Assembly (NCBI GenBank): GCA_031265595.1
Contig: JAISCM010000032.1
Coordinates: 1 to 11,401 of the forward strand
Reading direction: 5' to 3'
Length of the DNA stretch: 11,401 bases
DNA from: Tannerellaceae bacterium
GTDB taxonomy: Bacteria; Bacteroidota; Bacteroidia; Bacteroidales; Tannerellaceae
A model generated the notes under the pieces. It was not told where the DNA came from. It saw only the letters and a program-made list of their open reading frames with translations, and did no database searches. Made by a program: the position numbers and the translations under genes. The first letter of the stretch is position 1; each line of letters begins with the position of its first letter. Of this stretch, positions 2,506-11,401 are shown piece by piece.

Positions 2506-3219
2506 TTATTCTCCCGGGGTTATGCCGTACAGGGTGAGGGTGAGGGTTAATGAGGCGTTTTCTATGCGCGCTTTGTTGTACCAGATACGGGAGAATACGC
2601 CAAGGGCTGCATCCCGTATGTCATTGGCATTAAAGCTTCCTTTCCTCATAAAATCGGGGCCGAACGCTTTGCATGAAAAGTCGATAAATTTCTTTAGGCT
2701 GTCGCTGGCTTCATTTGTATTACTGATGAACACCAGATCATACCGCTTATTTTCATATTGAAGAATAAGGACTCTGAAGAAAGTAGACAGTTCTAATTTG
2801 GGAAGCTCCAATGCGAATAATTCCATCGGATGGCCGTTAGCGCCTTTGCCTCTTCTTACTGATTTAGGGTTATGTTTAAAAATATCGTATATATTAACGG
2901 AAAAGAAGTCTGCTATATCTTCTACTGCCTTTTCCGGTTCCTTTTCTCTTTTCTTTTCCATTTCCTTTTCTTTTTTCTTTTCCTTCTCCGGCTCCTTTTT
3001 CTTTTCCTTTTCCGGCTCTTTTTCTTTTTCTCTTTCCTTCTCTTTCTCTTTCTCTTTTTCCTTTTCAGGAGGGAAAGGGGAGGGCAAAGGCTCAGGGATT
3101 ACCTCTTGTGCGGGAGGCATAACAGGTGTCTCGATATTCAAAGGCCTTTCAATTTCAGGCTCTTTCGTTGTGTTTGATGATGCTTCTGACTTATATTTTC
3201 CGAATTTAAACAATCTCAT
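2506..3219 (-). CDS. hypothetical protein with Lys/Glu-rich linker and unrecognised C-terminal domain
   Basis: I do not recognise this 237-residue protein. It has no signal peptide or membrane segment and is probably cytoplasmic. Four parts are visible: a short basic N-terminus (MRLFKFGKYK), a proline-rich stretch (about 31-51), a Lys/Glu-rich tract (52-98) that includes a tandem EPEKEKKK repeat at 68-75 and 76-83, and a folded-looking domain (about 99-237) with hydrophobic periodicity. That domain contains FFSVNIYDIF, LELSTFFRVLILQYENKRYDL and a conserved-looking KFIDFSCKAFG. The K/E tract should form a long charged helix or extended spacer, so the protein may tether its C-terminal domain to a partner. 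The GAA/AAG-rich coding strand is almost pure purine for about 130 bases. The mixed, non-repetitive C-terminal domain argues for a real gene. It converges on the GtrA-like gene. Confidence 0.75.
   Translation of the reverse strand: MRLFKFGKYKSEASSNTTKEPEIERPLNIETPVMPPAQEVIPEPLPSPFPPEKEKEKEKEKEREKEKEPEKEKKKEPEKEKKKEKEMEKKREKEPEKAVEDIADFFSVNIYDIFKHNPKSVRRGKGANGHPMELFALELPKLELSTFFRVLILQYENKRYDLVFISNTNEASDSLKKFIDFSCKAFGPDFMRKGSFNANDIRDAALGVFSRIWYNKARIENASLTLTLTLYGITPGE
2926..3066 (-). repeat. polypurine low-complexity tract encoding the K/E linker
   Basis: The + strand is almost entirely C and T here (runs such as CTTTTTCTTTTCC), interrupted by a few GG or A bases at the Pro and Met codons. It codes for residues 52-98 of the hypothetical protein on the minus strand. 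It contains a 24-base repeat (EPEKEKKK twice) and shorter AAAGAG-like hexamer repeats, all multiples of three, so length change by slippage would often keep the reading frame. Confidence 0.85.
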
Positions 3220-3392: not shown

Positions 3393-4145
3393 ATGGCCGA
3401 CAAACAACAGATGGTGCTCCGCACGGAGGATTTAGTAAAGAAATACAGGACACGTACAGTTGTGAATCATGTTTCTATCTACGTAGAACAAGGCGAGATA
3501 GTTGGTTTGCTGGGCCCGAATGGCGCGGGGAAAACGACTACCTTCTATATGACGGTAGGCCTGGTTACTCCGAATGAAGGAAAGATATACCTGAATGAAG
3601 AGGAGATCACCAAATTTCCCGTATACAAGCGGGCGCGTAATGGGATTGGCTATCTGGCACAGGAAGCGTCTATCTTTCGTAAGATGACGGTAGAGGATAA
3701 TATCCGCTCGGTACTTGAAATGGCCGGCCAGCCGGAGGAATACCAAAAAGAGAAACTGGAAAGCCTGATTGCCGAGTTCGGCCTGTCTAAAGTACGGAAG
3801 AACCTGGGCGACCAATTGTCGGGTGGCGAACGGCGCCGGGCGGAAATAGCCCGTTGCCTGGCTATAGACCCTAAGTTCATCATGCTCGACGAGCCTTTTG
3901 CCGGAGTAGACCCGATAGCCGTACAGGATATTCAGGCCATCGTAGCAAAGCTGAAGCATAAAAACATCGGCATATTGATCACAGACCACAATGTATACGA
4001 AACCCTGAGTATTACAGACCGGGCTTATCTGCTGTTCGAAGGAAAAGTACTCTTCCAGGGAACGGCGGAAGAACTGGCCGCTAACGAGATCGTGCGCGAG
4101 AAATACTTAGGCAAAGACTTCCAGTTGAGAAAGAAAAACTTCTAA
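3393..4145 (+). CDS. lptB: LPS export ABC transporter ATP-binding protein
   Basis: The 250-residue ABC ATPase has the usual LptB length. It shows Walker A GPNGAGKT (41-48), Q-loop Gln90 ([18 protein letters not shown]), signature LSGGE (143-147) followed by [11 protein letters not shown], Walker B FIMLDEP (162-168), the FAGVDPIAV segment typical of LptB, and switch His199 in ITDHN. The family drives extraction of lipopolysaccharide from the inner membrane as the cytoplasmic motor of LptB2FG. The phrases [12 protein letters not shown] and FAGVDPIAV separate it from generic branched-chain amino acid transporters. No lptA, lptC, lptF or lptG gene is nearby; dispersed lpt genes are common. The start at 3393 gives the short N-terminus expected for the family. 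The overlapping open frame from 3290 is out of frame and not coding. Confidence 0.95.
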
Positions 4146-4999
4146 TCGCGCAGGATACGTTTACGAAAAAGGTACGTAACGTAGCAAAAAAGGATAAACG
4201 TCAGTATCGTTATACCTACGAAAACCAGCATTTCCGATTCCGGTATCTTTCCCGATATATAGCTGTTTTCTCTCAGATCGCTATCCGCCATCCCTATAAC
4301 AGCCAGTGCATTATTGCAAAAATGCGCCAGTATCGGCAGCCAGATGTTTTTGCTCCAATACAGCAGATACCCTAAATAGGCGCCTAATAACAGGCGGGGT
4401 ATCAGCCCGGAAAACTGGAAATGGATAGCGCTGAATATAAAGGCTACGCTCCAGATAACGACATGGTGGTTCCTGATCCATCTCCCTACGATCTGCTGTA
4501 AAACACCCCGGAAAAAGAACTCCTCCGTAATAGCCGCTAAAACGGCGATAACAAGCAGATTAAAGATAATAGCCATTACGCCCGTATCGGATAAGAGAAT
4601 GGTGGTGAGTTGTTCGATCTCTTCTTCAAGCTGCTCCAGAAACGGAGGCAGTTTTATACCTTCATTCAAAACGCCGGTCAGCGTGATGGTAGGCGACAAC
4701 AAAAGCACGCCGGCAAACGTAAGCAAGGTTATCTCTATCGTAGGAAACGATCTGACAGAAAGATACTCCGCCGGCTCTTTGCTACACAGCAGGGCAACAA
4801 GCACGGCAGGCGCCAGAAACACACAGATGGCCGATACGGTCTGGATAAGCCGCAGCGTCTCCGGGCTTTGTGTACCGCCCTCCAGATCAAAGACAAGCGT
4901 GATGACACCGGAAACTAACGTACCGGCCAACGTAAGACCTATCAGTAAAGCCAACTGAAAAAGGGCCGGACGCCCGGCATATATTCCTCTTAATTTCAT
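4142..4999 (-). CDS. CPBP-family intramembrane metalloprotease (CAAX protease / bacteriocin-processing type)
   Basis: The 285-residue polytopic protein has about seven or eight hydrophobic segments. It carries the three family motifs: E159-E160-x3-R164 in [13 protein letters not shown]189-x3-H193 in IFSAIHFQF, and H226-x3-N230 in LAHFCNNAL, which supply the glutamate and histidines of the membrane-buried active site. The family is related to eukaryotic Rce1; bacterial members process peptides or membrane proteins, and many have no known substrate. No peptide or bacteriocin gene is seen beside it, so I assign no specific role. A soluble acidic stretch (121-131, [11 protein letters not shown]) precedes the catalytic core. 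The stop overlaps that of lptB in convergent orientation. Upstream lies the long repeat-rich gap, and no clear promoter is seen; TATCTTTA (5029 down to 5022) is a weak candidate. Confidence 0.92.
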
Positions 5000-5081
5000 A
5001 ATCGTATCATAAAAATGGGCTTAAAGATAATTACTTTTGCCTGATATCCGAGGTATTTATTTCATAAAAAATCAATATGAT

Positions 5082-5279
5082 GTATCTCCCAAACCATTAT
5101 CGTGTATCTCCCAAACCATCATAGTGTATCTTCCAAACCATTATAATGCTTCGGAAGAACCATCATAATAGTTAAAAAAAGTCTTCTAAATGATATAAAA
5201 AAGTCTTCTAAATGCTTGGGAAGAGTCATCACAATGCTTTGATAAAGAGTCCGTAATGGTTTACTGATGACATTGTACT
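5082..5279. repeat. degenerate tandem array, 22-base period, about nine units (array A)
   Basis: Units start at 5082, 5104, 5126, 5148, 5170, 5192, 5214, 5236 and 5258. The first three share GTATCTCCCAAACCAT or close variants. The fourth begins GCTTCGGAAGAACCATCATA. The fifth and sixth share AAAAAAGTCTTCTAAAT. The seventh begins GCTTGGGAAGAGTCATCACA. The eighth and ninth are more divergent. All nine units end in T, most start with G, and no base is gained or lost between units. A possible tenth unit lies before it at 5060-5081. The period is not a multiple of three, which argues against coding. Confidence 0.85.
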
Positions 5280-5290
5280 AACTTTTTTTT

Positions 5291-5323
5291 CCTTTCGCCG
5301 GCCTGTAATCTTTGGCCGAAAGG
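5291..5323. repeat. bulged inverted repeat next to a T8 run
   Basis: CCTTTCG (5291-5297) plus GCC (5301-5303) pairs with GGC (5314-5316) plus CGAAAGG (5317-5323), giving a 10-pair stem with a three-base bulge. A run of eight T (5283-5290) precedes it on the + strand, which is the wrong side for a + strand terminator and gives A8 for a minus strand transcript. Confidence 0.5.
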
Positions 5324-5368
5324 AGGCTGAAGGCTGAAAGATATAACGATTTTACTACTTAACTCCTT

Positions 5369-5404
5369 GACTACTCTAACGACTCTGACTACTCTGACTA
5401 CTTT
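5369..5404. repeat. 9-base tandem repeat, four imperfect copies
   Basis: GACTACTCT, AACGACTCT, GACTACTCT and GACTACTTT follow each other without gaps. A minus strand reading would give Arg-Val-Val repeats, but no gene is supported there. Confidence 0.7.
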
Positions 5405-5415
5405 TAAAAGATACG

Positions 5416-5630
5416 TTTCACCTTTCACCACCCCCTTGAAACCCGCTCCCAGAGCGAGAAGTAGGGTGAAACGTACTCCTTTCACCTATCCATTTTGCTT
5501 TCACCTCCGGCTGCCGCGCTACTTTCGCCCGCCCAACACCGGTGGAAGGAGATGCGCCGGGTGAAACGAGCACGTTTCACCCCACTTCCCGCGCTGGAAG
5601 CGGGTTTCAAGGGGGTGGTGAAAGGTGAAA
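5416..5630. repeat. long imperfect inverted repeat rich in TTTCACC
   Basis: The left arm 5416-5474 and right arm 5572-5630 are 59 bases each and pair with four mismatches; the outer 32 bases (5416-5447 with 5599-5630) are exact. The spacer is 97 bases. The heptamer TTTCACC or its complement occurs nine times: 5416, 5423, 5465, 5480, 5499, 5560, 5575, 5617 and 5624. The left arm is also bounded by its own short inverted ends, ACGTTTCACC at 5413 and GGGTGAAACGT at 5464-5474. A nested pair CTCCTTTCACC (5476-5486) with GGTGGAAGGAG (5541-5551) lies in the spacer. Confidence 0.9.
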
Positions 5631-5657
5631 GCAGTATGTTTATATCCCCTGAGAAGA

Positions 5658-5678
5658 GCGATAAAAGTACCCTATCGC
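5658..5678. repeat. small hairpin GCGATA/TATCGC
   Basis: GCGATA (5658-5663) pairs with TATCGC (5673-5678) around nine bases, followed by AGCTTTTT. It resembles a weak + strand terminator, but no upstream gene would use it. Confidence 0.3.
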
Positions 5679-5735
5679 AGCTTTTTCGCTTCCGCTGATC
5701 TGTTAAAATAGTACAAGCCGGCAAAAGGAAAAAAA

Positions 5736-5845
5736 TCTTCGCGAAGTCTCCAGCAACTCTTCGCGAAGACGTTGGAAAAACATCGCGAAGTCTTTACAAA
5801 CTCTTCGCGAAGACTTAGAAAACTCTTCGCGAAGAATAAAAGATT
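5736..5845. repeat. array of five TTCGCGAA palindromes at exact 22-base spacing (array B)
   Basis: The decamer CTTCGCGAAG starts at 5737, 5759, 5803 and 5825, and a variant CATCGCGAAG at 5781, so all five are 22 bases apart. Three copies extend to the 12-base perfect palindrome TCTTCGCGAAGA. The linkers differ (TCTCCAGCAA, ACGTTGGAAA, TCTTTACAAA, ACTTAGAAAA). The array ends about 30 bases upstream of the -33 element of the tig promoter. The two-turn spacing would place the sites on about the same face of the helix. Confidence 0.9.
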
Positions 5846-5876
5846 CGTACAATATATATTTTATTTAACTATACAA

Positions 5877-5908
5877 TTTGTGAGATTAAAAGATTAAACC
5901 TAATTTTG
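5877..5908 (+). promoter_or_regulatory. promoter of tig
   Basis: TTTG (5877-5880) is followed after exactly 20 bases by TAATTTTG (5901-5908), a full match to the Bacteroidetes -33/-7 consensus. An A/T-rich stretch lies just upstream (5850-5876). Transcription should start near 5914, giving a leader of about 39 bases. Confidence 0.8.
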
Positions 5909-5952
5909 CAGCCTAAAATTCGATATTATAACAATTTAATAAATCATCAGGA

Positions 5953-7326
5953 ATGAATATTTCACTCAAACGCAATGATGATGCCATAAGTGGCGTTCTG
6001 GAAGTAGAAGTGGTAAAGGCTGATTATGCAGGCCAGGTAGAGAAAGGCTTACGTGGATACCAGCAAAAAGCGGAGAGACCGGGCTTTCGTAAAGGAAATG
6101 TGCCAATGGGCATAATCAGGAAGATGTACGAAAAACCCGTATTGGCCGATGAAGTAAATAAACTCGTTTCTGAAAGTGTGGCTAAGTACATACAGGAGCA
6201 TGGCGCAGATTTCTTAGGCGAGCCTTTACACAATGAAGAAAAACTGCTCAGTATAGATTTCGAGACCCAGGAGGATTTTGTTTTTTATTTCGATGTTGCC
6301 CTGGCGCCCGAAGTAACGGTTGACTGGAATAAAGACGATAAGCTGCCGTATTACCAGATAGCGGTAGATGATGAAATGGTTGAAGAGCAAGTGGATTCCT
6401 TCCGCGACAATTTTGGCGTATTAGATGATACGGTAGAAACGGTAGAAGAAAAAGACCTGATAAAAGGTCTCGTAACGGAGCTGGGAGACGACGGATCGCC
6501 CAAAGAAGGCGGCATAGTGATGGAAGACGGCATACTGATGCCTCTGTATATAAAGGATGAAGAAGAAAAGAATAAGTTTATTGGAGCAGCGAAAGGCAGC
6601 GCGATCACCTTCAATCCGGCCAAAGCGTATAACGGGGTTGTAGCAGAAATCGCTTCTTTCCTGAAGGTAAACCGGACGGAAGCAGAAAGCATTGTAACGG
6701 ATTTTACTTTTGAGATCAGGGAAATCTCCCATCACAGGAAAGCTGAAATGAACCAGGAGTTTTTCGACAAAGTACTTGGAGAAGGCAGCGCAACGACGGA
6801 AGAAGAATTCAGAAATAAAATAAAGGAGCAGATCCGTGAGCAGTTTACCCCGCAGAGCGACACCAAATTCTTACTGGACGCCCGTAAATACCTGCTGCAA
6901 AAGGTAGGAAGCGTAAGCTTTGCCGATGATATACTAAAGCGCGGGCTAAAGCTTTCGGGAGAAGGCAAGACAGCGGAGATGGTGGAAGAAGAGTATCCGA
7001 AGGTTATTGAAAACCTGACATTTCAGTTGATAAAAAGAGGTATTACAAAAAAGAATGACATTCCGGTTTTGGAGGAAGACGTAGAACGGATAGGAAGGCG
7101 CTTTGCCCAATCCTATCTGGCCCAATCCGGTATGTATTCTGCTTCCGCCGAAGTATTAGACAAGTATATGAAAGAATTGTTGGGCAACGAGCAAATACTC
7201 CGCACCATAATAGATCATGCCTTTGACGACAGGTTTATAACCTGGCTGAAAAACGAAGCCGACCTGGACGTTAAAGAGGTTTCTTACGACGATTTCAAAA
7301 AACTAACCGACGAAGAAAAGCAATAA
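5953..7326 (+). CDS. tig: trigger factor (ribosome-associated chaperone)
   Basis: The 457-residue protein matches trigger factor in length and layout. The N-terminal ribosome-binding domain carries the signature GFRKGNVP (44-51), the loop that contacts ribosomal protein uL23. A middle region (about 150-255) sits where the FKBP-type prolyl isomerase domain lies, but is poorly conserved, as is usual in Bacteroidetes. A long helical C-terminal domain (about 260-457) forms the chaperone cradle and ends in an acidic/lysine tail. It binds nascent chains leaving the ribosome and delays misfolding. The ATG at 5953 is preceded by AGGA directly adjacent, too close for a classical ribosome-binding site, in line with the weak Shine-Dalgarno use of the phylum. 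It has its own promoter and lies upstream of clpP; no clear terminator follows, so some read-through into clpPX is possible. Confidence 0.95.
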   Translation: MNISLKRNDDAISGVLEVEVVKADYAGQVEKGLRGYQQKAERPGFRKGNVPMGIIRKMYEKPVLADEVNKLVSESVAKYIQEHGADFLGEPLHNEEKLLSIDFETQEDFVFYFDVALAPEVTVDWNKDDKLPYYQIAVDDEMVEEQVDSFRDNFGVLDDTVETVEEKDLIKGLVTELGDDGSPKEGGIVMEDGILMPLYIKDEEEKNKFIGAAKGSAITFNPAKAYNGVVAEIASFLKVNRTEAESIVTDFTFEIREISHHRKAEMNQEFFDKVLGEGSATTEEEFRNKIKEQIREQFTPQSDTKFLLDARKYLLQKVGSVSFADDILKRGLKLSGEGKTAEMVEEEYPKVIENLTFQLIKRGITKKNDIPVLEEDVERIGRRFAQSYLAQSGMYSASAEVLDKYMKELLGNEQILRTIIDHAFDDRFITWLKNEADLDVKEVSYDDFKKLTDEEKQ

Positions 7327-7517: not shown

Positions 7518-8180
7518 ATGGAAGATTTTAAAAAATATGCTACGAAGCATTTACGAATGAGCAGCAATGCGTTAGACAGCTACATAAATATAACGAGCGA
7601 TTATATTTCTCCAACGATCATTGAAGAACGCCAGTTGAATGTAGCCCAGATGGATGTATTTTCACGATTGATGATGGACCGCATCATTTTTCTGGGGACA
7701 CAGGTAAACGACTATACCGCCAATGTGATCCAGGCGCAATTGTTATACTTAGATTCCAGCGACCCGGGGAAAGACATATCTATCTATATAAACTCTCCCG
7801 GAGGATCTGTTTATGCCGGCTATGGCATCTATGATACCATGCAGTTCATCGGCTCGGATATATCTACTATCTGTACCGGTATAGCAGCCTCTATGGCATC
7901 TGTGCTGCTGGTAGCCGGAACGAAAGGAAAACGTTTCGCCCTGCCTCATTCACGCGTAATGATCCACCAACCGATGAGCGGGGCGCAAGGACAAGCCTCA
8001 GACATGGAAATTGCCGTTCGCGAAGTACTGAAAGTAAAGAATGAACTTTATACCATCATCGCAAACCATTCGGGGCAGCCTTTCGACAAAGTAGAGAAAG
8101 ACGGCGACCGCGATTATTGGCTGGATTCGGCCGAAGCAAAAGAATACGGCATGATAGACGATGTATTAACACGTAAATAA
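7518..8180 (+). CDS. clpP: ATP-dependent Clp protease proteolytic subunit
   Basis: The 220-residue serine peptidase (family S14) has the complete triad: Ser125 in [11 protein letters not shown], His150 in RVMIHQP and Asp199 in DRDYWL. The Ser-His spacing of 25 and His-Asp spacing of 49 equal those of E. coli ClpP. The oxyanion loop [11 protein letters not shown] (91-101) and the C-terminal [11 protein letters not shown] are intact. Fourteen subunits form the two-ring barrel that degrades proteins fed in by ClpX. The N-terminal roughly 30 residues are longer than the mature E. coli enzyme and may include a short propeptide; the cleavage site cannot be placed. The ATG at 7518 follows an A/T-rich leader with no Shine-Dalgarno. 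clpX begins 23 bases after the stop. Confidence 0.97.
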
Positions 8181-9460: not shown

Positions 9461-11401
9461 ATGGTAAAAAAGGATTATCTAACTGAAAAACTGAAACTAC
9501 ACTTTGGGTTTGACACCTTTAAAGGGACGCAAAAGGCCATTATTGAAAACGTATTAGCCGGAAATGATACCTTTGTGTTAATGCCTACGGGAGGGGGGAA
9601 GTCATTATGTTATCAGCTACCTTCGCTCCTGATGGAAGGGACAGCCATTGTTATTTCTCCACTGATCGCTTTGATGAAAAACCAGGTTGATGCTATGAGA
9701 AATTTCAGTGAAGAGGATGGCATTGCGCATTTTTTAAATTCTTCTTTGAACAAATCGGCGATAGACCAGGTAAAAGAAGACCTCTTAAGCGGGCGGACGA
9801 AGCTGCTGTACGTAGCGCCCGAATCACTCACGAAGGAAGAAAACACGGACTTCCTGCGGCAGATACAAATTTCGTTTTATGCCGTAGACGAAGCGCATTG
9901 TATTTCGGAGTGGGGGCACGACTTTCGCCCGGAATACCGCCGTATACGTCCGATAATAACTGAGATAGGCAAGCGCCCTGTGATTGCCCTTACAGCTACG
10001 GCAACGCCGAAGGTGCAGCATGACATCCAGAAGAACCTCGGCATGATTGATGCAACGGTGTTTAAATCATCCTTCAATCGCCCGAATCTTTACTATGAGA
10101 TCCGCTCGAAAGGGCTTGATGTAGACCGGGAGATCATAAAGTATATCAAGAGTAAGGAAGGCAAGTCTGGCATCGTTTATTGTTTAAGCCGGAAGAAAGT
10201 GGAAGAGTTTGCCGATATATTGAAAGCGAACGGCATAAGGGCATTATCCTATCATGCCGGGATGGAGTCTCAGCAGCGCACGGCCAATCAGGATGCCTTC
10301 CTGATGGAAGAAGCCAATGTGATCGTGGCAACCATTGCCTTTGGCATGGGTATCGACAAGCCAGACGTACGCTACGTGATCCATTACGACATACCGAAAA
10401 GCCTGGAAGGCTATTACCAGGAAACAGGGCGCTCCGGGCGCGACGGCGGCGAAGGGCAATGTATCGCTTTCTATGCCTACAAAGACCTTCAGAAACTGGA
10501 GAAATTTATGCAGGGGAAGCCTGTGGCCGAACAGGAGATAGGCAAGCAGCTACTCCTTGAAACAGCCGCTTATGCCGAAACGGCCGTATGCCGGAGAAAG
10601 GTGTTATTACACTATTTTGGAGAAGAATATACTGAAGATAACTGTGGAAATTGTGATAATTGTTTGAATCCTAAGAAGCAAGTGGAAGCAAAAGATTTGT
10701 TGAGCGCAGTACTTGAAGTGGTAAGTACGCTAAAAGAAAAATTTAAGACAGAGTACATAATTCATATTTTACTGGGTAACGAAACGTCCGAAATCCAATC
10801 GTATAAACACAACGAGCTGGAAGTTTTCGCGTCAGGGCAGGACGAAGACGAAAAGACCTGGAACGCCGTAGTAAGGCAAGCCCTTATTGCAGGCTACCTG
10901 ACGAAAGATATTGAAAATTATGGTTTGCTAAAGATGACCGGAAAAGGGAAGGCATTTATGGATAAACCCGAATCATTCAAAATCATTAAAGATAATGAAT
11001 TTGAAGATGAGGAAGAAGATGCGCCTGTACGTGGAGGGGCGATATGCGCCGTAGACCCTATCCTTTATTCTATGATGAAAGACCTTCGTAAGAAACTTTC
11101 CAAACGGCTGGAAGTGCCGCCGTTCGTTATTTTCCAGGATCCTTCTTTAGAAGCTATGGCGACTACTTACCCTGTTACCCTGGAAGAACTGCAAAATATA
11201 CCGGGCGTAGGAGCCGGAAAAGCCAAACGATACGGAGAAGAGTTTATAGCGCTGATCCGTAAGCATGTGGACGAAAACGAAGTAGAGCGCCCCGAAGATT
11301 TGCGCGTCCGGACGGTTGCCAATAAATCCAAACTCAAAGTATGGATCGTACAGAGTATCGACAGAAATGTGGCCCTGGCTGATATTGCCATCACAAAAGG
11401 C
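9461..11401 (+). CDS. recQ: ATP-dependent DNA helicase RecQ (3' end outside window)
   Basis: The frame is open for 647 codons from the ATG at 9461 to the window end, without a stop. It shows the RecQ motif 0 region (HFGFDTFKGTQ, 14-24), Walker A MPTGGGKS (41-48), DEAH (143-146) with the following aromatic-rich loop CISEWGHDFRPEYR, motif V/VI (IAFGMGIDKPDVRYV, then QETGRSGRDG), and the zinc cysteines 377, 395, 398 and 401. A winged-helix RQC part and an HRDC domain (about 532-605, with LQNIPGVGAGKAKRYG) follow. The enzyme unwinds DNA 3' to 5' and acts in recombination and replication-fork repair. After HRDC the frame continues into a further C-terminal segment, consistent with the longer RecQ form in Bacteroidetes. 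It is the last visible gene of the clpP-clpX-recQ run. Confidence 0.96.
   Translation, partial: MVKKDYLTEKLKLHFGFDTFKGTQKAIIENVLAGNDTFVLMPTGGGKSLCYQLPSLLMEGTAIVISPLIALMKNQVDAMRNFSEEDGIAHFLNSSLNKSAIDQVKEDLLSGRTKLLYVAPESLTKEENTDFLRQIQISFYAVDEAHCISEWGHDFRPEYRRIRPIITEIGKRPVIALTATATPKVQHDIQKNLGMIDATVFKSSFNRPNLYYEIRSKGLDVDREIIKYIKSKEGKSGIVYCLSRKKVEEFADILKANGIRALSYHAGMESQQRTANQDAFLMEEANVIVATIAFGMGIDKPDVRYVIHYDIPKSLEGYYQETGRSGRDGGEGQCIAFYAYKDLQKLEKFMQGKPVAEQEIGKQLLLETAAYAETAVCRRKVLLHYFGEEYTEDNCGNCDNCLNPKKQVEAKDLLSAVLEVVSTLKEKFKTEYIIHILLGNETSEIQSYKHNELEVFASGQDEDEKTWNAVVRQALIAGYLTKDIENYGLLKMTGKGKAFMDKPESFKIIKDNEFEDEEEDAPVRGGAICAVDPILYSMMKDLRKKLSKRLEVPPFVIFQDPSLEAMATTYPVTLEELQNIPGVGAGKAKRYGEEFIALIRKHVDENEVERPEDLRVRTVANKSKLKVWIVQSIDRNVALADIAITKG

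Follow-up and report, generated by a model that had tools for sequence, protein, structure and literature searches.

Genes and repeats between the protease gene and tig

The window, meaning the whole stretch of 11,401 nucleotides analysed here, comes from a Tannerellaceae bacterium. It carries tig, clpP and clpX on the plus strand and, on the minus strand, an Rce1-like protease gene that is divergent from tig. A further minus-strand ORF (2506-3219) contains a low-complexity EKEKEK/PEKEKKK tract, with TRF periods of 24 and 54 and no Pfam match. The intergenic region between the protease gene and tig holds two arrays with a 22-bp period, together with several inverted repeats (Table 1). The left array was overlooked in the preliminary description of this DNA, and the repeat finder split it in two.

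Table 1. Features of the region between the CAAX protease gene and tig (positions in the window)
Feature	Position	Strand	Details
Rce1-like CAAX protease (CPBP) gene	4142..4999	-	divergent from tig
Composite palindromic repeat	5050..5834	.	L204 (G013) matches 5050-5666 and 5720-5816 at 73-78%; outer limits provisional
Left array: two five-unit modules (ten units) that share one 22-bp phase	5073..5280	.	CATTATAATG type 5073-5170; CATnnnGAAGAC type 5183-5280
Leader copy in inverted orientation, towards the left array	5284..5313	-	87% inverted match to the leader
Large inverted repeat between both arrays	5416..5630	.	arms 5416-5505 and 5541-5630, 83% complementary
Leader with GCCGGCAAAAGGAAAAAAA, before the right array	5706..5735	+	87% inverted copy of 5284-5313
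A-run plus T (AAAAAAAT), left edge of the right array	5729..5736	.	a similar edge starts many relatives' arrays
Right array, five units	5737..5834	.	cores CTTCGCGAAG at 5737, 5759, 5803 and 5825, CATCGCGAAG at 5781; four 12-bp linkers; period 22
Conserved tig leader/promoter block	5860..5952	+	TTTG 5877-5880, TAATTTTG 5901-5908; outside the array
tig (trigger factor)	5953..7326	+

In the right array the CTTCGCGAAG 10-mers are perfect palindromes, with CATCGCGAAG as the variant of the fifth unit. This array had been presented as five identical palindromes at an exact spacing of 22 bases. The spacing was confirmed, all four start-to-start steps being 22, and five sites are indeed present, but they should be read as four plus one, since TTCGCGAA is exact at 5738, 5760, 5804 and 5826 and the site at 5782 is ATCGCGAA, with one mismatch. 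The number of exact TTCGCGAA sites in the whole window (five) was reached in none of 200 dinucleotide shuffles (maximum 3), and in 300 shuffles any 8-bp palindrome had at most 2 copies per 100 bp, versus 4 observed. The fifth exact site is isolated within clpP (8017-8024) and has no neighbours. Departures from the column consensus affect 1 of 50 core bases versus 13 of 48 linker bases (p = 3e-4), and a 44-bp unit describes the array better than one of 22 bp (81% versus 73% matches). No T-run was found at its right edge.

A consensus promoter had also been placed close to the end of the array. A sigma-70-type scan of the plus strand found none here; what stands of the claim is a candidate Bacteroidetes-type promoter that begins 42 bp past the array, in a block conserved among relatives. 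We take the TTTG and TAATTTTG motifs of this block to be that candidate promoter. This arrangement would suit an operator array dedicated to tig, one of the readings offered in the preliminary description, with conservation upstream of tig in relatives as its own check. A Tig match was found in 113 of the 123 genomes, the nearest relatives in the family of G001 being G023 (70%), G011 (68%) and G001 (67%). Relatives match block 5860-5960 at 77-98%, and conservation gives out some 25 bp past the right end of the array. Among 34 tig loci inspected, 8 had no visible CPBP gene and 2 were genome repeats, which left 24, or 25 regions with the window. A clear lag-22 array (at least 34 of 44 matches) is present in only three of these 25 regions despite the conservation of the promoter, namely the window, L202 (G023) and L228 (G028), with a different palindrome in each, TTTAGAGGTACGTCTAAA being that of L228; in L223 the best score was at lag 22, though weak (26). 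An array also lies upstream of tig in G001, where CPBP was not found in the locus, and another in Porphyromonas gulae, about 520 bp upstream. Arrays therefore do sit upstream of tig in several genomes, but not in most, and their palindromes differ. Furthermore, homologous arrays stand at loci without tig. The promoter block is thus conserved in relatives and the array is not, so that the proposed check largely goes against a tie to tig. From this comparison of relatives, the tig-operator reading appears largely refuted already, and we regard it as very unlikely.

Dispersed five-unit modules in Tannerellaceae genomes

Exact TTCGCGAA pairs at 22 bp occur in 2 of 123 family genomes versus 6 of 123 for the reversed-pattern control, so there is no excess of the exact word pairs. 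In viral contigs, 15 stretches were seen, each with one or two TTCGCGAA pairs at 22 bp. The pattern CATTATAATG-N12-CATTATAATG, with at most 2 mismatches, was found in 13 of 123 family genomes, giving 248 forward versus 5 reversed-control matches (none of the latter in G001, G011 or G012, and 1 in G023). These arrays usually open with an A-run and close with a T-run; between them lie units, in either orientation, that each join a 10-bp core to a 12-bp linker. Requiring an A-run on the left and a T-run on the right, we kept from 783 chains 47 complete distinct arrays of Tannerellaceae relatives and the window, among which 29 have five units and the others three (5), four (3), six (5), ten (3) or eleven (2), a few of the 47 being chance or frame-shifted, e.g. 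L085 and L114. The right array of the window falls outside this set by the edge rule, and one N-only stretch was excluded from the samples. In a typical module, about five cores, palindromic or nearly so, begin at intervals of 22 bp (two helical turns).

Within arrays, cores resemble one another beyond permutation (0 of 1000, with the window arrays in or out), and so do linkers (0 of 1000 with the window arrays, 24 of 1000 without them), in tests that ignore kinship and on relatives' arrays mostly detected through word patterns. Such likeness among cores would fit either a common reader or palindromes that correct one another.

The window array and its leader, taken together, have matches in 5 of 123 genomes, among up to 6 candidates scored per genome, and those in G035 and G068 (26-28 bp) are probably due to chance. 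In G093, L266 reads CATTGCGATG-tctccagtcaaa-CATCGCGATG-tcgttggaaaaa-CATCGTGATG-tcgttactaaac-CATTGGGAAG-acttttttatat-CATCGCGATG and is in register with the window array. The window linkers find their best match in L266 at the same position (8, 11, 8 and 6 of 12), the fourth merely as a tie, and the cores differ by a symmetric change from CATCGCGATG to CTTCGCGAAG, with CATCGCGAAG as a half-way form. L204 (G013) contains a relative of 5050-5666 (73% over the longest piece, E 1e-97) and one of 5720-5816 (75%, E 9e-11) with CTTCGCGAAG-type units. This element stands not before tig but before putatively IS66-like genes. Judged from these alignments, the window array belongs to a dispersed family as one of its five-unit modules, and it lies inside a composite palindromic repeat.

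G001 and G011 contain repeated copies of longer composites, with alignments of up to about 570 columns, that have A/T-run edges and inverted repeats on the outside; inspection by eye shows comparable ones in G012 and G093. The repetition of composites with outer inverted repeats makes the element look mobile. The outer inverted repeats in G001 and G011 are made of GTGACT words rather than of the GTGAAAC/GTTTCAC words seen in the large inverted repeat at 5416-5630 of the window, relatives of which were noticed in G012, G093, G094 and G013.

In this sense, the main rival to the protein-binding reading developed below is a selfish, MITE-like dispersed palindromic element. Its array would be an internal hairpin, its transposase would act in trans, its five units would stem from a master copy, and the host would make no use of it. 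Besides the composites, the L204 relative at another locus and the width of the CPBP-tig gap, 953 bp in the window versus 139-177 bp in 11 of the 25 divergent regions, point in this direction. So does folding, as array strands form long hairpins, the right array scoring z -5.2 on one strand and -6.7 on the other, and the arrays of five relatives -6.4 to -13.0. However, the left stretches of the window fold poorly (z -3.4 for 5060-5180) or show no tendency to fold (z +0.4 for 5170-5245), and no target duplication, transposase or autonomous parent copy was established for the composites. An 85-bp end used as a query hit 4 contigs in the 0.79-Mb sample of G001, without a long-spaced pair. Together with the Porphyromonas data presented in the next section, this makes a MITE-like origin a possibility that we consider doubtful.

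One geometry with differing palindromes in Bacteroidales

A word-free lag test with a minimum of 40 matches in 66 was applied to 1.588 Mb from five Bacteroidales genomes, where it detected 37 lag-22 arrays (10 in G133, 2 in G073, 2 in G050, 6 in G008 and 17 in G001). It detected none in 0.602 Mb composed of 200 kb of E. coli K-12 and 402 kb of tig loci from other Bacteroidota. As G001 and G133 were sampled for carrying arrays, the Poisson contrast (8e-7) is inflated; the genomes not picked for arrays (G073, G050 and G008) gave 10 in 400 kb. The layout is patchy, since 540 kb of Bacteroidales tig loci (n = 47, grouped by titles) held just 2 lag-22 arrays. Lags 14-20 and 24-33 gave 0 to 5 arrays each per sample. 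At lag 21 there were 10 arrays in G001, with about 5 to 18 units, and lag 23 gave 6 in G133, 2 in G073 and 1 in G050. We also noticed in G001 (L091, L094, L095, L122 and L146) 21-bp units with palindrome-like TTTCYGCGCRGAAA cores, in runs of about 6 to 12, which form a second period class within that genome.

Among the 37 lag-22 arrays, 35 span 4.0-6.0 units, a range whose lower limit is fixed by the test, and the only ones far from five units are L338 and L350 of G133. These (10756-11026 and 15165-15430, respectively) are two near-alike GC-rich 22-bp arrays of the CCGTAGAGC type with about 12 units. By column permutation, palindromy fell below 0.05 in 15 of the 37 arrays (9 of 10 in G133) and was not significant in 22 (13 of 17 in G001); this test was used instead of an earlier one on the whole-segment consensus, which was too blunt and put 5 of 37 below 0.05. 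One geometry goes with differing palindromes, such as GATTTATATATAAATC, TTTAGAGGTACGTCTAAA, AATAGTATATACTATT, TTTCCACTAGTGGAAA and others. Several 22-bp arrays of unlike sequence were found within G133 and within G008, and two core types in the window. At the level of sequence, then, other Bacteroidales also have the layout of about five units at 22 bp, built from unrelated palindromes, and a geometry common to unrelated sequences argues against the MITE-like element.

In P. gulae (L004, G127) the unit is GATTTATATATAAATC plus 6 bp, which makes 22, with 34 forward matches versus 0 for the control. Five units are present in 19 of 21 arrays, a set that excludes matches on five further contigs, and 84 of 86 steps are exactly 22. 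Arrays of this type occur in 2 of 26 genomes of the genus, the other one being G133, a close relative that, from its similarity, is probably P. gingivalis; here, five units were counted in 18 of 19 arrays, and the step is exactly 22 in 74 of 77 cases. We compared nine chosen orthologous pairs between both genomes. The 936 array columns held no gap event, whereas 7 fell in the 1445 columns of the near flank and 57 in the 4982 outer ones; at the near-flank rate alone the chance of zero gaps in the array columns is 0.011. Cores were identical at 681 of 720 positions versus 1235 of 1436 in the near flank (Fisher p = 4e-10), with 4049 of 4714 in the outer flank. Linkers were identical at 197 of 216 (p = 0.04), and the difference between cores and linkers was not significant (p = 0.08). 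Part of this conservation could come from gene conversion among copies. The strict geometry of the arrays looks selected, and the finding that nine arrays keep their orthologous places and are conserved above their flanks also speaks against a MITE-like element.

A neutral minisatellite grown by slippage could likewise be tandem and intergenic, and vary in sequence by lineage, as the arrays do. Nevertheless, the unit number is near-fixed in the two Porphyromonas genomes and has five as its most frequent value in the Tannerellaceae set, the spacing is exact, the window linkers vary more than the cores, and the nine orthologous pairs are free of indels, which leaves slippage hardly credible as an explanation.

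Another possibility is that the array acts as RNA, adjacent palindromes pairing into hairpins that would serve termination, mRNA stability or a small RNA. The fold scores of the two strands of the right array and the A-run and T-run edges of relatives are consistent with it, and in P. gulae a terminator-like hairpin ending in GGGTGCC precedes, by eye, most of the 21 arrays. The stem of this hairpin (L004 about 655-700, flanks of L288-L307) varies, with apparent compensatory changes by eye. On the other hand, pairing between arms is just above permutation in the Tannerellaceae set (28.5 versus 26.5 of 44, p = 0.009; p = 0.056 when G-U is counted) and is not beyond it in Porphyromonas (p = 0.92). 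Long-hairpin pairing that is weak in one group and absent in the other lowers the RNA readings. Rfam gave no family at gathering score within 4900-6000, with four sub-threshold matches only.

The gene context of the lag-22 arrays did not differ from background, computed without G001: 10 are divergent, 13 co-directional and 5 convergent out of 28 (p = 0.51), 8 of the 37 being unclassed at contig ends and 1 in a short, probably spurious, ORF. In the pattern-found Tannerellaceae set, 16 of 30 rows are divergent (p = 0.09), a count in which L085 and L114 are excluded, L088 is counted twice and 15 of 45 rows at contig ends are unclassed. A terminator reading from gene context was rejected, there being no significant orientation preference. 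Overall, a role as RNA seems improbable to us. The preliminary description had named similar arrays scattered elsewhere, downstream of genes too, as a point against its reading, and similar arrays do lie at other loci, some of them between convergent genes (4 of 30, with one locus entered twice; 5 of 28; and 5 of 17 classed in P. gulae).

A putative reader of phased palindromes, and known systems

The exact phase, the number of about five units, the dyad symmetry and the lack of indels suggest that a dimer or oligomer reads the arrays as DNA, with about two turns to each site. From this geometry and constraint, both apparent in the counts above, we infer a protein and a function. The explanation that we favour, tentatively and with confidence somewhat short of even, is that the arrays are phased sites for a putative dimeric or oligomeric DNA-binding protein, carried in the window by a dispersed element. 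A putative homodimeric or oligomeric protein would read the layout as DNA over about five phased sites on one helix face. Cores within an array would change together, because the sites share one putative reader or correct each other. The role would be chromosome-wide, in nucleoid structure, insulation or titration, rather than dedicated control of tig, and any effect on tig would be a consequence of the landing place of the element. The earlier suggestion of a cluster of sites for a putative dimer on one helical face, or of a chromosome-organising element, is compatible with the 22-bp phase, the roughly five units, the indel-free pairs and the conservation of cores above flanks.

Co-variation between the two core halves exceeds what column composition predicts in the Tannerellaceae set, where 3 of 2000 shuffles did as well (21 of 36 modules kept, below 80% identity), but not in Porphyromonas, where 825 of 1000 did (14 of 38 kept), and this weakens the dimer argument there. 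One sequence-specific protein cannot read such unlike palindromes, which counts against the phased-site reading, as do the neighbouring periods of 21 and 23 bp, the 22 lag-22 arrays with non-significant palindromy, the non-significant margin of cores over linkers and the patchiness of the layout. Shared descent of dispersed copies could alone explain the five units within one genome. A broader form of the phased-site reading, which we find rather unlikely, is a geometry-coded chromosomal mark of Bacteroidales: some five palindromes set 22 bp apart along one face of the helix, with words differing between arrays. It would be kept by a putative protein or protein family reading spacing and dyad symmetry more than sequence, and its cores would evolve in concert. 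Such arrays are carried by P. gulae and, in the family to which the window belongs, by further genomes, so that cultivable carriers exist or can be sought.

REP/BIME elements are dispersed intergenic palindromes associated with RAYT (Y1) transposases. The arrays resemble them in being dispersed, intergenic and palindromic and differ in having no tie to a Y1 transposase. The Y1 domain (PF01797) was found in 44 of 123 genomes, including G002, G011, G012, G023 and G094, and was not found in the array-bearing drafts G001, G013 and G093, for which reason a RAYT link was rejected. In plasmid iterons, e.g. the five 22-bp repeats of F incC, an initiator binds in-phase repeats about 22 bp long. Phased repeats of this length are common to both, but our array is chromosomal, with many copies per genome in relatives, and no replication-initiator domain was found in the eight window proteins scanned.

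BrickBuilt, a MITE of P. gingivalis with a 23-nt minisatellite, is described in the accessible text as having 1 to 22.8 copies, expanding and contracting, and IS5-like ends (PMC4596501). It differs from the 22-bp arrays in its 23-nt length, its own consensus and its variable copy number. Its consensus had no match in the window at up to 3 mismatches, and its ends had 2 matches with 2 mismatches versus 2.15 expected, none of them in the element. By eye, four of the six lag-23 units in G133 resemble the BrickBuilt consensus. In the portions available, PMC5771137 does not describe 22-bp arrays and leaves short repeats of 3-31 bp unannotated, PMC3878776 presents a 22-bp palindromic Crp-like motif of Bacteroides as a motif and not as a phased array, and a 2019 survey (PMC6749651) mentions neither Porphyromonas nor Bacteroid-. 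Within the open-access literature covered, and as far as the accessible portions go, five-unit 22-bp palindrome arrays in Bacteroidales were not found.

The closest comparison is with the constant-size tandem repeats of 20-23 nt described in Bacillus by Subirana and Messeguer, where, according to the available text, constant size with variable sequence is a stated puzzle, for which the authors propose a polymerising nucleoid protein or small RNAs (PMC8161180). That class is defined there by units of 20-23 nt, at least 4 repeats and at least 60% of identical length; the window array, with five units and every step of 22, falls within it. Several families of the same length and different sequence per genome, another trait of the class, are found in G133, in G008 and in the two core types of the window. 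Both systems share a fixed length of about two turns, a sequence that varies by array or species and a non-coding location, while the arrays described here are distinguished, as far as the available text goes, by palindromic cores with linkers, about five units, core likeness within arrays and indel-free orthologues (the strings "palindrom" and "bacteroid" are absent from that paper's main text). These palindromic units in about five copies, changing in concert within arrays and conserved between species free of indels, make the constant-length-repeat puzzle, as worded in the accessible part of PMC8161180, testable, the question being which protein or process requires five dyads at intervals of two turns.
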